Source of the DNA: Candidatus Gastranaerophilales bacterium
GTDB lineage: Bacteria; Cyanobacteriota; Vampirovibrionia; Gastranaerophilales; Gastranaerophilaceae
DNA length: 64,000 nt
NCBI GenBank assembly: GCA_944323695.1
Contig: CALUTI010000001.1
Coordinates: 186,001-250,000 of the forward strand
Direction of reading: 5' to 3'
Below are positions 56,630-63,129 of this stretch, one piece after another (within the stretch, counting starts at the first letter, position 1; each line of letters opens with the position of its first letter). The notes below the pieces were generated by a model. That model worked only from the letters and a program-made list of their open reading frames with translations. It had not been told where the DNA came from and ran no database searches. The position numbers and the translations under genes are program-made.

Positions 56630-56660
56630 AAAAGACGGGAATTAATTCCCGTCTTTTTTT
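56630..56660. terminator. bidirectional terminator
   Basis: AAAAGACGGGAA TTAA TTCCCGTCTTTTTTT; the stop codon of the minus-strand gene lies in its loop. Confidence 0.85.
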
Positions 56661-57472
56661 ATATTTAATTTAGTTCTTAAATTCTCATCAAATTCTTCAG
56701 TGAATCCTAATCTGTTTTTATCTTCCGCAGAAAGATTGTTATACATATTTTTTATACATTCCCTGATAAATTCAGTTGTAGGTTCTATTTTATCTCCCTG
56801 CCATTTCGGATTAAAATATGCATTCAAAGCCAACACATTAGGTGTTCTAAACTCGCCCAAATCACAGCCTATATATAATGACCCTTCATTCATTACATTA
56901 GTAAAGTCTATAAATTCATCCATAAATGCTTTGCGTTCTGATTCAGTCTTTTGTTTATAATCTTGCATTTGAGCCAAAAATTCTTGTTTGTTTAATGCCT
57001 GTTTGTAAAGTTCATTTTCTTTTTTGCCAAACAATTCTTCATTAGTAATAAAAATTGGTTTGCTCCAATAATCTAACGGTATATAATATCTGTAATAATT
57101 AATATTTTTTTGTTCACAGGCATCTCTTAACTTATTAAAGCCTGCCAGATCAACAATTGTTTTAATATTAGATTTTTTAAGAAGGTCTAAATATTCCGGA
57201 TTCCGAAATAATGACGCGCCTTTGTAGGATCCGGCGCCTATATTTTCAATATTAGGAATAAACACATCATCAATTGATGCCGCACATTCCGGCATATACT
57301 CATCATAAGGGTCGTTCATAAATAAAAATTGCGGATAAATATGAGCCCTTATGGCACCACGAATTTTTTGCCCGCCATAATCATCTGCCATATGATGGAC
57401 CGAATCATTCTCCTCCTGCGAAAAATTCGCTCTGAAGTTAATATTAAAAGAATTTAATGCTGAAATTTTCAT
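56642..57472 (-). CDS. Tyrosine/dual-specificity phosphatase-like protein with N-terminal F-motif (paralogue 2)
   Basis: 276 residues from the ATG at 57472, which is eight bases from AGGAG. M-K-I-S-A-L-N-S-F-N-I-N-F-R-A-N carries the F-motif (11-16). A T-I-V-D-L-A-G-F strand and G-C-D-L-G-E-F-R-T (C-x5-R-T, near 210) are the phosphatase P-loop pattern. The catalytic Cys and Arg are present. The C-terminal F-N-P-K-W-x-G-D-K and L-G-F-T-E-E-F blocks match the neighbour upstream, 30 bases away. A phospho-Tyr or phosphoinositide target is possible but not shown. Confidence 0.75.
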   Translation of the reverse strand: MKISALNSFNINFRANFSQEENDSVHHMADDYGGQKIRGAIRAHIYPQFLFMNDPYDEYMPECAASIDDVFIPNIENIGAGSYKGASLFRNPEYLDLLKKSNIKTIVDLAGFNKLRDACEQKNINYYRYYIPLDYWSKPIFITNEELFGKKENELYKQALNKQEFLAQMQDYKQKTESERKAFMDEFIDFTNVMNEGSLYIGCDLGEFRTPNVLALNAYFNPKWQGDKIEPTTEFIRECIKNMYNNLSAEDKNRLGFTEEFDENLRTKLNIKKDGN

Positions 57473-57502
57473 AAAAAACACTCCTAAACATTTGCAGACA
57501 AC

Positions 57503-58336
57503 TTAATCTATCAGACCTATTCCCAATTTTTGACATAAATCTTTTTCAAATTCTTCCGTAAATCCCAAATCACGCTTGTCGCGTTTTGTCAGATTTCCAT
57601 AGAATATTCTGAATTTTTCCAGTTGTTCATCATCCGGTTTTAAAGATTTATCACCATCCCATTTAGGATTAAAATATTGATTCATTAAAAGAGCCGCATC
57701 AGTTCTGAGTTTACCGTGATTACAGCAGATATAAAAATTCCCTTTGTTAATAACAGATACAAACTCTTTAAATTTATCTATGAATTCCCTTGCTATATTA
57801 TCATAAGCAAATTCCTCACTATCATCCGGAAGACGGGTATTCGGGATTTTATGAGTTTTTGCATATTCTTCGCGAGTAACAAAAGGAGGATTGTCCCGAT
57901 AAGTTAAAAATATCGGGAACGCATAATAGTCAAACCCCTTTAATTCACATAAAATATCATAATCTGGGAGTTTTGCCAAATCTATGACAGTAGTTACGCC
58001 TTTTCTTTTAAGCGGTGTAAGCCGTTTTGGAGTGTATAAAAGAGCCTCACCCCTGTAACAATTTTTCTTAACAGGAACGATAGGCAGCGGCAAATGCGTA
58101 CGCTTATAATTTTCCATAAGGTTAATGCTTTCAAAATCACGATTTTTTATCTTCTTAATGCGCTTTGGATCATTATATGCCTCACGTATATATTCACTTG
58201 CGGACTTATAAGCCTTAGGCGGATCACCTTCTTTTCTTAAAAGATCATCTAAAGTGGATTCTTTTTCAGGTCTGTCATAACAAGAACTAAAAGAAACCTG
58301 ATTATAATTAAATAATTTAACTTGATTGATTCGCAT
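57503..58336 (-). CDS. Tyrosine/dual-specificity phosphatase-like protein with N-terminal F-motif (paralogue 1)
   Basis: 277 residues. M-R-I-N-Q-V-K-L-F-N-Y-N-Q-V-S-F-S-S (F-motif at 14-18), then a basic linker. V-T-T-V-I-D-L-A-K-L and C-C-N-H-G-K-L-R-T-D (C-x5-R-T, about 209-216) give the PTP/DSP P-loop. No signal peptide. It is tandem with the related gene downstream. A TTTAAT ends seven bases from the ATG, with no ribosome site, a possibly leaderless start. Confidence 0.75.
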   Translation of the reverse strand: MRINQVKLFNYNQVSFSSCYDRPEKESTLDDLLRKEGDPPKAYKSASEYIREAYNDPKRIKKIKNRDFESINLMENYKRTHLPLPIVPVKKNCYRGEALLYTPKRLTPLKRKGVTTVIDLAKLPDYDILCELKGFDYYAFPIFLTYRDNPPFVTREEYAKTHKIPNTRLPDDSEEFAYDNIAREFIDKFKEFVSVINKGNFYICCNHGKLRTDAALLMNQYFNPKWDGDKSLKPDDEQLEKFRIFYGNLTKRDKRDLGFTEEFEKDLCQKLGIGLID

Positions 58337-58368: not shown

Positions 58369-59733
58369 CTAGTCATTTTCATTTTTTTGTGGAGATTCTA
58401 TAAGGCCGGGTTCCAATTTTGAACCTGTAAACCATTCTCTGAATATAAATTGTGCTTTTGGAAGGCAATAAGCCAATAAAAAGCTGCTTAATCCTATATT
58501 CGCAAGTATGGTTAACGAACGAAGTTTCAAAGATTTATTTGCGAATTTAATTATATCTGCATTTTGTCCTGCTTTACTTACAAATTTAGATTTAATACCT
58601 TTTTCTTTTGCATTTTTAACAAATTTTTCAATATTGGATTTAAATTTAGCAAGTTCCTGTACGTCGACATAAGCTCGCGGATCGCGTACTCCGTTTTCAA
58701 GGAGCTTAACCTTTCCGCTTTGTCCGGCGAGTTGTGTAAATAAAGCTTTTGGATTGTTATCAATAAACTCCAGCAAATCTTTTGCAGAATCAGATTTTGG
58801 CAAAACAAGGCTGTCATTTTTTACACTTGCCAAAAATCGTTTATTTACGAACATTTTTGGATCAAGATTAACATCGGTTATTTTATTAAAAGCCTTTTCA
58901 ATCCAGTGCGGAGCAACAAAATTTAAAAACATCATTCCTGACATCTTAAATGCAAGATCGATCGCCTCATTTTTCTTCCGTGCGGTTACAATTCTTCCTA
59001 CAGCATATCCCCCATCAGTAACAGCCATTTTCTGTACGGTTGTAAAGTTTGTAATAACAGAAGTTACTGCACCCTGGAAAGTTGTCATCTTTTCTCTGCC
59101 ACGGATAAACTGGTCAAAATCTTTTGCTCCAAAAGTTAAACCTGAAATATTTGCGTCCGGATTTTCACGTTTATATTTTTCCATTTTTCTTGCCGTGGAT
59201 GCAAATATAAGTTTAGGAATAACAAAACCCATTAGCGCAATAGGAACAGCAATTGAGGCTAAAAATTTACCGTTCATTAAATTTTCAAATAATTTTTTAT
59301 TATTTTTAACGTTGATTAAATCTTTAACGGCCTCTTTTGCCTCAGGCTTATCAGAAAATTTTTTGATATTATACTCAAACCCCTGACAAATTTCTTCAAC
59401 TTTTTTCCCTGCTTTTAATTTTTTGTTATATTTTTCTTCTTCACTAATAAGTTTAAGATTTACATCTGAATTCAAACCGAGTTTTTTAACCCTTTTTATA
59501 ATTTTTTTACCGGCATAATCAATCAAAGGAATGCCGCCAAGCCATACTGCAGATACTGCATATTCATCAATAAAACGTTCTCTTGCACCAAGCCAGGCAA
59601 TTTTTTTATTCTCCTTATTTTGGTTATAAGTCATGGCAATTTTGGTCGGGACTTCTATTCCGCAATCCCTGACTATTAAAGGATAAATGCTGCTGTTATT
59701 GCCTATGGCAGAAATTATATTGACTAATGACAT
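58369..59733 (-). CDS. Multi-pass membrane protein of the paralogous family, behind a structured leader
   Basis: 454 residues from ATG 59733, which follows GGAGG; an upstream ATG overlaps that site. It has a K-K-I-A-W-L-G-A-R-E-R-F helix, as in the pair at 3819-5068, and hydrophobic segments near 58-75, 160-180, 255-275 and 408-430. The long middle part is basic and charged. Function unknown. Its 185-base upstream gap holds stems and a terminator-like hairpin with a U-run just before the ribosome site. Confidence 0.65.
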   Translation of the reverse strand: MSLVNIISAIGNNSSIYPLIVRDCGIEVPTKIAMTYNQNKENKKIAWLGARERFIDEYAVSAVWLGGIPLIDYAGKKIIKRVKKLGLNSDVNLKLISEEEKYNKKLKAGKKVEEICQGFEYNIKKFSDKPEAKEAVKDLINVKNNKKLFENLMNGKFLASIAVPIALMGFVIPKLIFASTARKMEKYKRENPDANISGLTFGAKDFDQFIRGREKMTTFQGAVTSVITNFTTVQKMAVTDGGYAVGRIVTARKKNEAIDLAFKMSGMMFLNFVAPHWIEKAFNKITDVNLDPKMFVNKRFLASVKNDSLVLPKSDSAKDLLEFIDNNPKALFTQLAGQSGKVKLLENGVRDPRAYVDVQELAKFKSNIEKFVKNAKEKGIKSKFVSKAGQNADIIKFANKSLKLRSLTILANIGLSSFLLAYCLPKAQFIFREWFTGSKLEPGLIESPQKNEND

Positions 59734-59756
59734 AATGTTTAAGACCTCCAATTCCG

Positions 59757-59883
59757 TAAAAAAATAACTTCTCGTTTTCCCCGGGAAGCCATTTTTACAG
59801 AATTGAATAAAGCGTCACATCAATTCAACAGCTACCCGAGGGTGCTATGTGAATGATGATGCAATTTTATTAACGCTTTTTTC
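59757..59883 (-). promoter_or_regulatory. structured leader with terminator-like hairpin before the membrane protein gene
   Basis: Nested stems: AAAGCGT (59808-59814) with ACGCTTT (59872-59878), CACAT (59815-59819) with ATGTG (59846-59850), and AGC-ACC with GGT-GCT inside. GAATTGA (59799-59805) could instead pair TCAATTC (59819-59825), a mutually exclusive fold. Minus-strand CTTCCCG / CGAGAAG (59787-59767) is followed by TTATTTTTTT, then GGAGG of the next gene. Layout like a transcription-attenuating riboswitch, but no known class is matched; on the plus strand the outer stem also ends in a T-run. Confidence 0.5.
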
Positions 59884-59918
59884 ATTTTCTTTTCCTTTGT
59901 TGTTTTATACTACCATAA

Positions 59919-60515
59919 TTAATTAACTTTTTCAATACCGGAAATCATATTATTCAAAAAATCATCCGCATACTTAGCTTTTTCTTTTAAGCCAAATCTG
60001 TAATCAATTAACTCACCTTCAGTCAGATTATCAATTGCAGCGGCAAGTTTTTCATCTGACGGATTAACATCTCCGGTCAATTCTTTTATATATTTAGGAT
60101 TTTGTGTAATTTTTAAAATTGCTTCCGTTTTATTTTGATTAGCAACTTTAACAATATTTTGTTCTGCATCTATAATATTTTTTTCTTTTAATGATAAGAA
60201 TTGTTTCAACAAACTGTCATTTGCCTTTGTTCCTAAAATCCCGCCATAGTTATTAGACAAATGGAAATTGTCAAGCGAAAGCGATACAGTACCTTTTTTC
60301 AAATCATAAGCTGTACCAATAAAAGATTTCTGACTGCCCCATTTTGCAATATTCTTAAATTGATCAACAAGTGGTCCAAGCATGCCGGCATCTTTTGCTT
60401 CGCGAATTAAGGTTTCTTGAAGCTTTGGCATTAAATTTGCCTGAAAGCAAGGTTTATTGCATTTTTGCATACTATAATTTGAATTACCGATTGAATAGTT
60501 TGTAGAAATTCTCAT
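59919..60515 (-). CDS. Hypothetical protein with N-terminal F-motif
   Basis: 198 residues. M-R-I-S-T-N-Y-S-I-G, an Asn/Ser linker, K-P-C-F-Q-A-N (F-motif around 22-27), then an amphipathic helical domain with A-K-D-A-G-M-L-G-P-L-V-D-Q-F and several charged helices. No membrane segment, no signal peptide. AAAGGAG ribosome site. Not a known family. Confidence 0.65.
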   Translation of the reverse strand: MRISTNYSIGNSNYSMQKCNKPCFQANLMPKLQETLIREAKDAGMLGPLVDQFKNIAKWGSQKSFIGTAYDLKKGTVSLSLDNFHLSNNYGGILGTKANDSLLKQFLSLKEKNIIDAEQNIVKVANQNKTEAILKITQNPKYIKELTGDVNPSDEKLAAAIDNLTEGELIDYRFGLKEKAKYADDFLNNMISGIEKVN

Positions 60516-60564: not shown

Positions 60565-60852
60565 CTATTTCAAAAATTTATCTTCAAGAAACTTAACCTT
60601 TACATCATCAAATATTTTTAACAAAATTATTTTTTCTTTATTTGTATGACCTTTCACAATTTCAATATAAGATTTTGCGATTTTAAGTTCTTTTGAGAGG
60701 TATTCAATCAGGGCTTTGTTTGCCTTCCCGTCGACAGGCTGAGCTGTAAGCTTAATTTTTATCCCCTCCGCAGATTTTATAATCTCATTTTTGGATGAGT
60801 TAGGAATGATTTTTAGATGTATTAATAAACCGTCTTTTGTTTGTTTAAGCAT
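60565..60852 (-). CDS. DUF167 (YggU) family protein
   Basis: 95 residues. I-P-N-S-S-K-N-E-I, K-I-K-L-T-A-Q-P-V-D-G-K-A-N-K-A-L-I-E-Y-L-S-K-E-L, then I-V-K-G-H-T-N-K-E-K are the family blocks. Small basic alpha/beta protein of unknown role. It is divergent from the RelA/SpoT gene. Confidence 0.9.
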   Translation of the reverse strand: MLKQTKDGLLIHLKIIPNSSKNEIIKSAEGIKIKLTAQPVDGKANKALIEYLSKELKIAKSYIEIVKGHTNKEKIILLKIFDDVKVKFLEDKFLK

Positions 60853-60883: not shown

Positions 60884-60912
60884 TTGAAAAAATTAAAAAA
60901 AATTTGTATCAT
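60884..60912 (+). promoter_or_regulatory. promoter of the RelA/SpoT gene, near-leaderless
   Basis: TTGAAA (60884-60889), 17 nt, TATCAT (60907-60912); start of transcription about three bases before the ATG at 60922. No Shine-Dalgarno. Confidence 0.5.
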
Positions 60913-60921
60913 TATTATACC

Positions 60922-63129
60922 ATGTCCGACATAGAACTTTTTCAAGAAATCAAACAAAAACTTATTGAACAAAACAGAAGCGACGAAGAAATTGCTCTTG
61001 TTGAAAAAGCTTACCATTATGCAAAAAAACTGCATGAAGGTCAATACAGAATTTCAGAAGAACCTTATATAATCCATCCGGTTGAAGTCGCCAAAATTCT
61101 GGTTGATTTAAAAGTTGATACACATACGCTGATTGCAGCATTCTTGCATGACATATTAGAAGATACCGAAACAAAACCGGAAGAAATTAAAAATCTTTTT
61201 GGTGATGATGTTTTAACACTTGTTCAAGGTGTTACAAAACTCAGCAAATTAAAATTCAAATCAAAAGAAGAACGTCAGGCTGAAAATTTCCGACGTCTTT
61301 TTATTGCGATGGCAAATGATATAAGAATAATTTTCCTGAAGCTTGCCGACAGACTCCATAATATGCGCACACTGAATTTTATGGCGGTCAATAAGCAAAA
61401 GAAAATAGCACAGGAAACACTTGATATTTTTGCCCCGCTTGCGAACCGATTAGGGATGGGGAAAATTAAGGCAGAACTTGAAGACTTATCTTTAAGATAC
61501 CTTGAACCTGATAAATATTTTGAAATTGCCCAGCTTGTTTCGCAAAAAAAAGCAGAAAGAGAGCAGACCGTTCAGCTTTTGATAGATAAGATTTCAAAAG
61601 ATGTAAAAGCCGCAGGAATTAATGCACAAATTACCGGCCGTGCAAAACACTATTACAGTATTTACTGCAAAATGAAACGTCAAAATATTGCGTTTCACGA
61701 CCTGTATGACATAACTGCAGTACGTGTAATTGTTGACACCGAAAAGGAATGTTATGAGGTATTGGGTCTGATTCACTCGCAATTTAAGCCGATTCCGGGG
61801 CGTTTTAAAGATTACATTGCAATGCCCAAAGGCAACTTATATCAGTCATTACACACCTCAGTTATTGGTCCTCGCTCAAAACCGCTTGAAGTTCAAATAA
61901 GAACATGGGAAATGCACGAAGTTGCCGAATATGGTGTTGCGGCACACTGGAGATATAAGGAAAAGGGTTCTGAAAAAGCAAACCACGCATCAGATTTGCA
62001 ATTTTCATGGATGAGAAAGCTTGTCGAATATGACAAGGAGACAAAAAATGCAAAGGATTATGTAAATTCTGTCAAGCTTGATTTATTTTCAGATCAGGTT
62101 TTTGCCTTCACACCCGGCGGAGATGTTTTGGATTTACCCAAAGATGCGACACCTGTTGACTTTGCCTACCGTATCCACAGTGACGTCGGACACCGCACAA
62201 TCGGTGCCAAAATTAACGGCAGAATAACACCGCTTGATACAAAAATAGTAAACGGCGATATTGTAGAAATTTTAACTTCAAAAACACCTGCACCACGCCT
62301 TGACTGGCTTAATTTTGTAGTAACAAAGCAGGCTTCCTCTAAAATCAAACAATGGTTCAAGAAAAATAATCGTGAAGAACATATTGAGCTTGGCAGATCA
62401 CATCTTGAACATGAACTTACAAAAGCAGTATTTGATGACTATCTGAAACAAGGGGAATTTGATAAAATAGCCCAGCAAATGAATTACCAATCTGCAGAAG
62501 ATTTGTTTGCCGCATTAGGTTATGGGGAAACGACCTTAAACAAAATAGTAAATAAACTGCAAAAACCCAAAGAAAAAAATATAGAGGATAAATTCCACAC
62601 ATCAACAAGAAAAAAATCCGAAAAAGATATTATCGGACTGGAAGGAATGATGTATTCATTTGCCCGCTGCTGTTCACCGATTCCAGGAGAACCGATAGTC
62701 GGCGTCGTAACCCGATCAAAAGGGGTTACAGTCCATAGAATTGACTGCAAAACTCTTGAATACATTGAACCCGAACGAATGATGGATATTCAATGGGCAG
62801 GAACCAATACAAACAAAACTTACACAACAACAATCCGTATTGAAACAGCAGACAAACTCGGAATGCTCAAAGATATTATCGCAGCAGTTTCCGATAACAA
62901 TACAAATATTATTACAGCAAACGTAAAATCCAGAAACAATATCGGTATAATTGAAATCGGGCTTGAACTTGATAATATTGAGACATTGAAAAAAGTAATC
63001 AATTGCTTGCAGGCGCTTCCGGATGTTTTCAGTGTAAAACGTATTCAAACATCCGCACAAACTGCTTCTCCCAAACGTCCAAATAACGGCAAACAGCGTC
63101 CGCCAAAGAAAAAACCTAAAAAAGGCTGA
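60922..63129 (+). CDS. Bifunctional (p)ppGpp synthetase/hydrolase (RelA/SpoT)
   Basis: 735 residues from ATG 60922 (a TTG 18 bases upstream overlaps the promoter). HD hydrolase (A-F-L-H-D-I-L-E-D-T, near 73-82), synthetase (G-R-A-K-H-Y-Y-S-I-Y and F-K-D-Y-I-A-M-P-K-G-N-L-Y-Q-S-L-H), TGS domain (about 395-455) and a C-terminal ACT domain (I-E-T-A-D-K-L-G-M-L-K-D-I). Both active centres look complete. It makes and breaks the stringent-response alarmone. A basic Pro/Lys-rich tail ends the protein. Confidence 0.95.
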   Translation: MSDIELFQEIKQKLIEQNRSDEEIALVEKAYHYAKKLHEGQYRISEEPYIIHPVEVAKILVDLKVDTHTLIAAFLHDILEDTETKPEEIKNLFGDDVLTLVQGVTKLSKLKFKSKEERQAENFRRLFIAMANDIRIIFLKLADRLHNMRTLNFMAVNKQKKIAQETLDIFAPLANRLGMGKIKAELEDLSLRYLEPDKYFEIAQLVSQKKAEREQTVQLLIDKISKDVKAAGINAQITGRAKHYYSIYCKMKRQNIAFHDLYDITAVRVIVDTEKECYEVLGLIHSQFKPIPGRFKDYIAMPKGNLYQSLHTSVIGPRSKPLEVQIRTWEMHEVAEYGVAAHWRYKEKGSEKANHASDLQFSWMRKLVEYDKETKNAKDYVNSVKLDLFSDQVFAFTPGGDVLDLPKDATPVDFAYRIHSDVGHRTIGAKINGRITPLDTKIVNGDIVEILTSKTPAPRLDWLNFVVTKQASSKIKQWFKKNNREEHIELGRSHLEHELTKAVFDDYLKQGEFDKIAQQMNYQSAEDLFAALGYGETTLNKIVNKLQKPKEKNIEDKFHTSTRKKSEKDIIGLEGMMYSFARCCSPIPGEPIVGVVTRSKGVTVHRIDCKTLEYIEPERMMDIQWAGTNTNKTYTTTIRIETADKLGMLKDIIAAVSDNNTNIITANVKSRNNIGIIEIGLELDNIETLKKVINCLQALPDVFSVKRIQTSAQTASPKRPNNGKQRPPKKKPKKG

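Follow-up and report, generated by a model that had tools for sequence, protein, structure and literature searches.

The closest described counterpart of the element reported here is the hisL attenuator of Escherichia coli and other gammaproteobacteria, in which a short ORF with tandem His codons, competing helices and a terminator precede the first gene. According to passages of two comparative genomic studies (PMC9413887, PMC2965389), His-leader attenuators with 3-5 His codons have also been proposed before his operons, hisZ and hisS* in Firmicutes, and replacement of the terminator by sequestration of the ribosome-binding site has already been described. A passage of the former study further describes T-box(His) control of the histidine transporters hisXYZ* and yuiF in auxotrophic Firmicutes (PMC9413887).

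We analyzed a leader region in a genome of Candidatus Gastranaerophilales (1.73 Mb), using a 64,000-nucleotide stretch referred to as the window. The locus resembles hisL in its tandem-His short ORF, competing helices and terminator. However, it has no Rfam match, belongs to a different phylum, precedes a gene outside histidine biosynthesis, and is carried by hosts that mostly lack hisD. It also differs from hisL in the pairing of the Shine-Dalgarno (SD) sequence at the terminator base and in the apparent loss of the terminator in some relatives. His-codon leader peptides and attenuator hairpins are common to this locus and the Firmicutes His leaders, but the targets of the latter are known his genes, whereas the target here is an uncharacterized Gastranaerophilales membrane protein. 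As with the T-box(His) transporters, a stand-alone gene would be controlled by histidine starvation in histidine auxotrophs. A T-box binds uncharged tRNA directly, whereas no T-box match was obtained here, and the protein is unrelated to known transporters within our searches. A search of the openly accessible literature gave no report on leader peptides in Gastranaerophilales. We conclude, with a probability of about 0.92, that the element is a histidine-specific leader-peptide attenuator.

The region 59734-59918 of the minus strand was predicted to fold at −52.7 kcal/mol, compared with −32.3 ± 3.8 kcal/mol for 200 dinucleotide shuffles (z = −5.4). The nested stems described in a first-pass annotation of this DNA are present on the minus strand. 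The competing pairing proposed there also stands, as GAATTGA (within 59826-59818) is complementary to TCAATTC (59806-59800), and it is longer than noted, as CGGGUAGCU also pairs with GGCUUCCCG. The terminator-like hairpin with its U-run was correctly placed before GGAGG and the ATG at 59733. A translated-looking ORF in the 5′ part, containing four His codons, had been missed. The features are summarized in Table 1. Because GAATTG of CGGAATTGGAGG pairs with CAATTC of segment 3, the SD sequence of the gene is at the base of the helix formed by segments 3 and 4 (3:4). Both promoter-like blocks are kept across the genus alignment and form a putative promoter. A RelA/SpoT homolog-like ORF recognized by eye (60904-63129, plus strand) and an adjoining YggU-family (DUF167) gene (60565-60852, minus strand) are found again next to the leader in the loci of the genus.

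Table 1 Features of the leader and the controlled gene in the window.
Feature	Position (strand)	Details
Putative promoter-like hexamers	59907..59935 (-)	Consensus scan; TTGAAA 59935-59930, extended -10 TAGTAT 59912-59907, spacer 17 nt
SD-like sequence of leader ORF	59889..59898 (-)	AAAGGAAAAG
Leader ORF	59832..59885 (-)	17 codons, MKKALIKLHHHSHSTLG*; ATG 59885-59883, stop TAG 59834-59832
His-codon run (segment 1)	59847..59861 (-)	CAT CAT CAT TCA CAT; predicted regulatory codons
Segment 2	59818..59841 (-)	CCTCGGGTAGCTGTTGAATTGATG; partner of either the His-codon segment (1:2) or segment 3 (2:3, the antiterminator)
Segment 3	59779..59806 (-)	TCAATTCTGTAAAAATGGCTTCCCGGGG; arm common to antiterminator (2:3) and terminator (3:4)
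Intrinsic terminator hairpin	59758..59790 (-)	Core stem GGCTTC/GAAGTT; U7 59764-59758
Segment before the gene	59745..59756 (-)	CGGAATTGGAGG; GAATTG pairs with CAATTC of segment 3; gene SD GGAGG 59749-59745
Whole element	59885-59739 (-)	
Controlled gene	58369..59733 (-)	454-aa helical membrane protein; ATG at 59733

We searched for the leader in related genomes (genomes, leaders with their loci, and genera are cited by our G, L and g numbers, respectively). Direct matches to the leader DNA were obtained in 10 of 21 genomes, namely its own, eight of the same genus (80-93% identity) and one of another family; the last match covers 21 nt only and was treated as chance. Five more genomes have the same kind of leader upstream of the orthologous gene. 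Protein searches detected orthologs in 14 of the 16 genus genomes, the remaining two holding distant homologs only. At the family level, 141 of 219 genomes had an ortholog (E < 1e-40). The upstream regions of 145 orthologs were read, comprising 14 genus loci and 131 others from the family; one more, G217, consists of a fragment at the edge of a contig and was left out.

A short ORF with at least three His within seven residues was present in all 145 upstream regions. The same pattern was found in 0 of 76 upstream regions of a paralog described below and in 20 of 2900 dinucleotide-shuffled regions. The leaders contain 3-7 His each, and His accounts for 646 of their 3000 residues. The start codon, picked automatically except in L018 and L074 where it was set by rule, is ATG in 144 leaders, and only one relies on TTG or GTG. 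An SD-like trinucleotide lies within 20 nt upstream of the leader ORF in 109 of the 145. Outside the His residues the peptide diverges (e.g., LKLHHIHHHS, LQKHHHTHHI and KRHHHNHHHCH), and the count, spacing and neighbors of His vary widely. As the peptide is freely variable apart from His, the pattern is that of a codon sensor and not of a conserved peptide. Within the genus, His is changed to Tyr in the leaders L012/L005 of G012 and L018/L009 of G011 (HYHSH and YHHSYGTH). No other sequence resembling a leader before a gene was seen among 22 matches to His-run patterns elsewhere in the own genome (20 distinct loci inspected), and no comparable His leader was seen by eye within about 1.5 kb on each side of hisD in 30 of the 76 hisD genomes.

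Covariation was analyzed to evaluate the competing helices. In 140 of 145 leaders, segments 2 and 3 were more complementary than in at least 95 of the 100 shuffled sequences (mean z = −4.9), and the 1:2 pairing exceeded shuffles in only 70. Alignment A5 was made from the 71 of 145 leaders that have CAATTC after the His codons, contain no N and span at most 165 nt; the other 74 were dropped. In these 71 leaders, 93.6% of the cells of the antiterminator helix (2:3) were paired, with two-sided changes in 12 of 21 pairs (180 cells), and 91.0% of those of the helix combining the terminator and SD base (3:4) were paired, with two-sided changes in 8 of 16 pairs (114 cells). In controls slid by one to three columns, at most 58% of the cells were paired for either helix (maximum for 2:3, 57.7%). 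The GAATTG/CAATTC pairs at the 3:4 base are paired in 97.9% of cells, yet almost invariant. Both helices covary on the same A5 columns, 106-115, as mutually exclusive helices with one common arm; therefore, the three arms change together. The conservation and covariation among relatives called for by the first-pass annotation are thus present.

A run of five T within the last 90 nt was found in 97 of the 145 leaders. In leaders lacking this run, the same helix reaches the SD sequence, and therefore control there would be translational. Genus g22 (L113, L118, L121, L122 and L130) keeps the His leader and the gene but has a different downstream RNA, with CGTTAGC/GCTAA-type pairing, the SD sequence in the 3:4 arm and no U-run, which looks purely translational. 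In genus g21 (L138-L140, L143, L150, L155, L158, L160, L162 and similar leaders), ACTCCTTT pairs directly with the AAAGGAG SD sequence, and SD sequestration apparently takes the place of a terminator.

We simulated the effect of a translating ribosome by folding the 71 leaders to the terminator end with a ribosome footprint placed at each codon in turn. Counted from the first base of the P-site, the footprint covered 15 nt on the upstream side and 13 nt on the downstream side. Without a ribosome, the probability of the antiterminator, P(2:3), was 0.15 and that of the terminator, P(3:4), was 0.69. With the A-site ahead of the His run, the values were 0.44 and 0.40; within the run, they were about 0.66-0.68 and 0.20-0.21; past the run, 0.08 and 0.72; and with the ribosome at the stop codon, 0.02 and 0.73. 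P(2:3) peaked at 0.77 at the third codon past the first His; two codons further on, it had fallen to 0.28. The positions 0 to +4 from the first His, which mostly hold His, gave the highest antiterminator probability. When the ribosome was moved from the His stall to the stop codon, the terminator probability increased by more than 0.3 in 48 of 71 leaders and decreased as much in one. Thus, in this folding simulation of 71 of the 145 leaders, the ribosome position on the regulatory codons picks the helix. Accessibility of the SD sequence with a stalled ribosome, calculated at equilibrium on the full-length leader for all 145, did not differ from that in shuffles. In these models the switch can be seen while the transcript grows and is absent at full-length equilibrium.

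These results are consistent with the following mechanism. RNA polymerase would transcribe the leader as a ribosome translates MKKALIKLHHHSHSTLG. When charged tRNA-His is scarce, the ribosome would pause at the His codons and mask segment 1, so that segments 2 and 3 would pair, no terminator would form and the gene would be transcribed. When histidine is ample, the ribosome would reach the stop codon and mask segment 2; segments 3 and 4 would then pair and transcription would end at U7. The 3:4 pairing is also predicted to occupy the SD sequence of the gene, and in relatives without the U-run this block alone would be left. Charged tRNA-His is the likely signal because the tandem His codons occupy just the positions at which ribosome stalling releases the antiterminator. 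We infer that the leader is translated and responds to histidine.

Other explanations of the element were weighed against this mechanism. The first-pass annotation described a riboswitch-like leader. A cis-acting RNA with alternative structures and a premature terminator agrees with our results, whereas an aptamer sensor is unlikely, a tandem-His ORF being found instead. A ligand-binding riboswitch, in which the RNA fold would enclose a small molecule and the presence of the ORF would be incidental, could account for the strong structure, the alternative helices and the terminator, and histidine itself could be the ligand. We nevertheless consider it very improbable, as all 145 leaders keep an open ORF with 3-7 His while the rest of the peptide and the RNA sequence diverge, and as the His codons lie where a stalled ribosome frees segment 2. 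In Rfam scans, no riboswitch class reached its threshold and no known RNA class was obtained. The covariance model of the Rfam His leader, which we take to be RF00514, gave no match at the gathering score in the window or to E 10 in 59600-60000. Riboswitch and T-box models gave no match, and the only hits above threshold were tRNAs in the flanks of L249 and L261.

HHHxHH motifs are able to bind Zn or Ni, and a His-rich nascent peptide might sense another signal, such as a metal ion, and arrest the ribosome at a point that would coincide with the His stall. The wide variation in the number, spacing and neighbors of His makes this explanation quite implausible, and it leaves the His-purged protein and the loss of hisD unexplained. 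A plain terminator of the gene at 59919-60515 would agree with a U-run hairpin located about 130-160 nt downstream of the stop codon of that gene, and a plus-strand small RNA, also suggested in the annotation, with the mirror-image hairpin on the plus strand. Both are barely credible. A plain terminator would need neither the conserved His ORF nor the competing helix, and the leader ORF and antiterminator helix are kept before 145 orthologs; the conserved ORF, ribosome sites and promoter-like hexamers all lie on the minus strand. The histidine-specific attenuator is the reading adopted below.

The product of the controlled gene is probably a membrane protein, judging from its hydrophobic helices. 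The genes downstream are not conserved, and two phosphatase-like genes each accompany the ortholog in 13 of 145 loci; therefore, the unit consists of the leader and one gene. In the window, the neighboring genes at 57503-58336 and 56642-57481 are weakly similar to tyrosine or DSP-type phosphatases. The 454-aa protein contains one His, the lowest fraction among the 35 long ORFs of the window. Among the 145 orthologs, 117 have no His, and the mean is 0.27 per protein, whereas each paralog and distant homolog counted has 2-7. The His content is 0.06% in orthologs and 0.95% in 20 paralogs or distant homologs, i.e., 0.07 of that level, or an approximately 15-fold depletion. The other residues differ from those 20 proteins by 0.73-1.48-fold, and His alone is so depleted.

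Pfam, NCBIfam and PDB sequence searches with the protein gave no significant match, including none to known amino-acid transporter sequence models. A structural model built from 49 orthologs was nearly all helix (mean pLDDT 80.8). Foldseek returned nothing at E 0.001 or better, and the best fold comparison (VIA-align 2; Z 6.6, rmsd 9.3 over 173 residues) was in the chance range for helical models, although the absence of a fold match is not evidence that the fold is new.

We examined whether the ortholog is linked to histidine biosynthesis in the 219 family genomes. hisD was present in 3 of 141 genomes with the ortholog versus 51 of 78 without it (Fisher test, p = 4e-26, a value that ignores shared ancestry). 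As controls, ilvC was unlinked to the ortholog and trpA was linked; among trpA-lacking genomes the hisD link persisted (3/141 vs 26/53). It was also seen within genera g20, g24 and g27 alone (1/16 vs 15/19). Neither hisD nor the ortholog was found in 27 of the 219 genomes (e.g., G002, G044, G098 and G108), of which some may be incomplete assemblies and others may have another histidine source. Among the 16 genus genomes, hisD and strong hisA/hisF matches were found only in G012, whose leader also carries the His to Tyr change. According to a passage of a published study, the amino acids that gut Melainabacteria are unable to make include histidine and arginine (PMC3787301).

A paralog with 21-29% identity to the window protein within the genus (e.g., G000:C1:132763-134118, L249) has leaders of a different composition. 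Seventy-six paralog loci were collected, consisting of 30, 40 further fetched and 6 distant homologs (the start of L309 is misplaced). ORFs upstream of the gene that contain Arg-Arg or three or more Arg were found at both a distal and a proximal position in 57 loci, at one in 17 and at none in 2. The motif CGACG was present in 70 of 76 paralog regions, compared with 2 of the 145 upstream of the His-leader gene. The contrast was weaker in a looser control, in which an ATG ORF with two Arg within seven residues was present in 73 of 76 paralog regions and in 38 of the 145. The paralog leaders (L185-L190, L249-L318) carry tandem short Arg-Arg ORFs, mostly with CGACG-type codons. The distal ORF precedes a terminator-like hairpin, and the proximal peptide has the conserved C-terminus ...KANAPIVKLMNLIWGL, which may mark a nascent-chain arrest peptide. 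Of the 219 family genomes, only 11 had a strong argG match in a count by eye, weaker matches being mostly partial. These observations suggest a family whose members may each respond to an amino acid of their own.

Histidine acquisition is the most likely function because the product can be made with almost no His and persists in genomes that no longer synthesize histidine. We therefore favor uptake or scavenging of histidine as its activity, with moderate confidence. A transporter and a subunit or anchor of a scavenging system would be equally compatible roles. The attenuator might instead operate as described while the protein has a different role in starvation, for example in altering the envelope or in regulation. 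This alternative is possible, although on balance we doubt it: no transporter similarity was found and the weak helical fold matches are uninformative, but the ortholog is nearly exclusive with hisD, and the Arg-leader paralog occurs in mostly argG-less genomes, which points to replacement of lost synthesis. On the comparative evidence, the regulatory reading is nearly certain, and histidine acquisition is a strong prediction for the protein. Our best reading is that histidine starvation induces a nearly His-free membrane protein, probably for histidine acquisition. We give even odds to a broader proposal, an unrecognized Gastranaerophilales membrane family that acquires basic amino acids, with leaders coded per amino acid (His, or two tandem Arg) and a His member that was purged of His to be made under complete starvation and replaced lost synthesis several times within genera.

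The mechanism is classical, but the lineage is new, the target is unexpected and the histidine signature is unusually consistent. Three independent lines point to one amino acid: the leader codons, the residues absent from the product and the genes absent from the genome. The product would be a clear example from nature of a starvation protein that is poor in the very residue in short supply. The locus would widen the known range of leader-peptide attenuation to include the non-photosynthetic sister lineage of Cyanobacteria, and it equips a large orphan membrane family of uncultured gut bacteria with a function that can be tested. If the protein imports histidine, it would represent a new type of transporter and offer a hint for culturing these bacteria.
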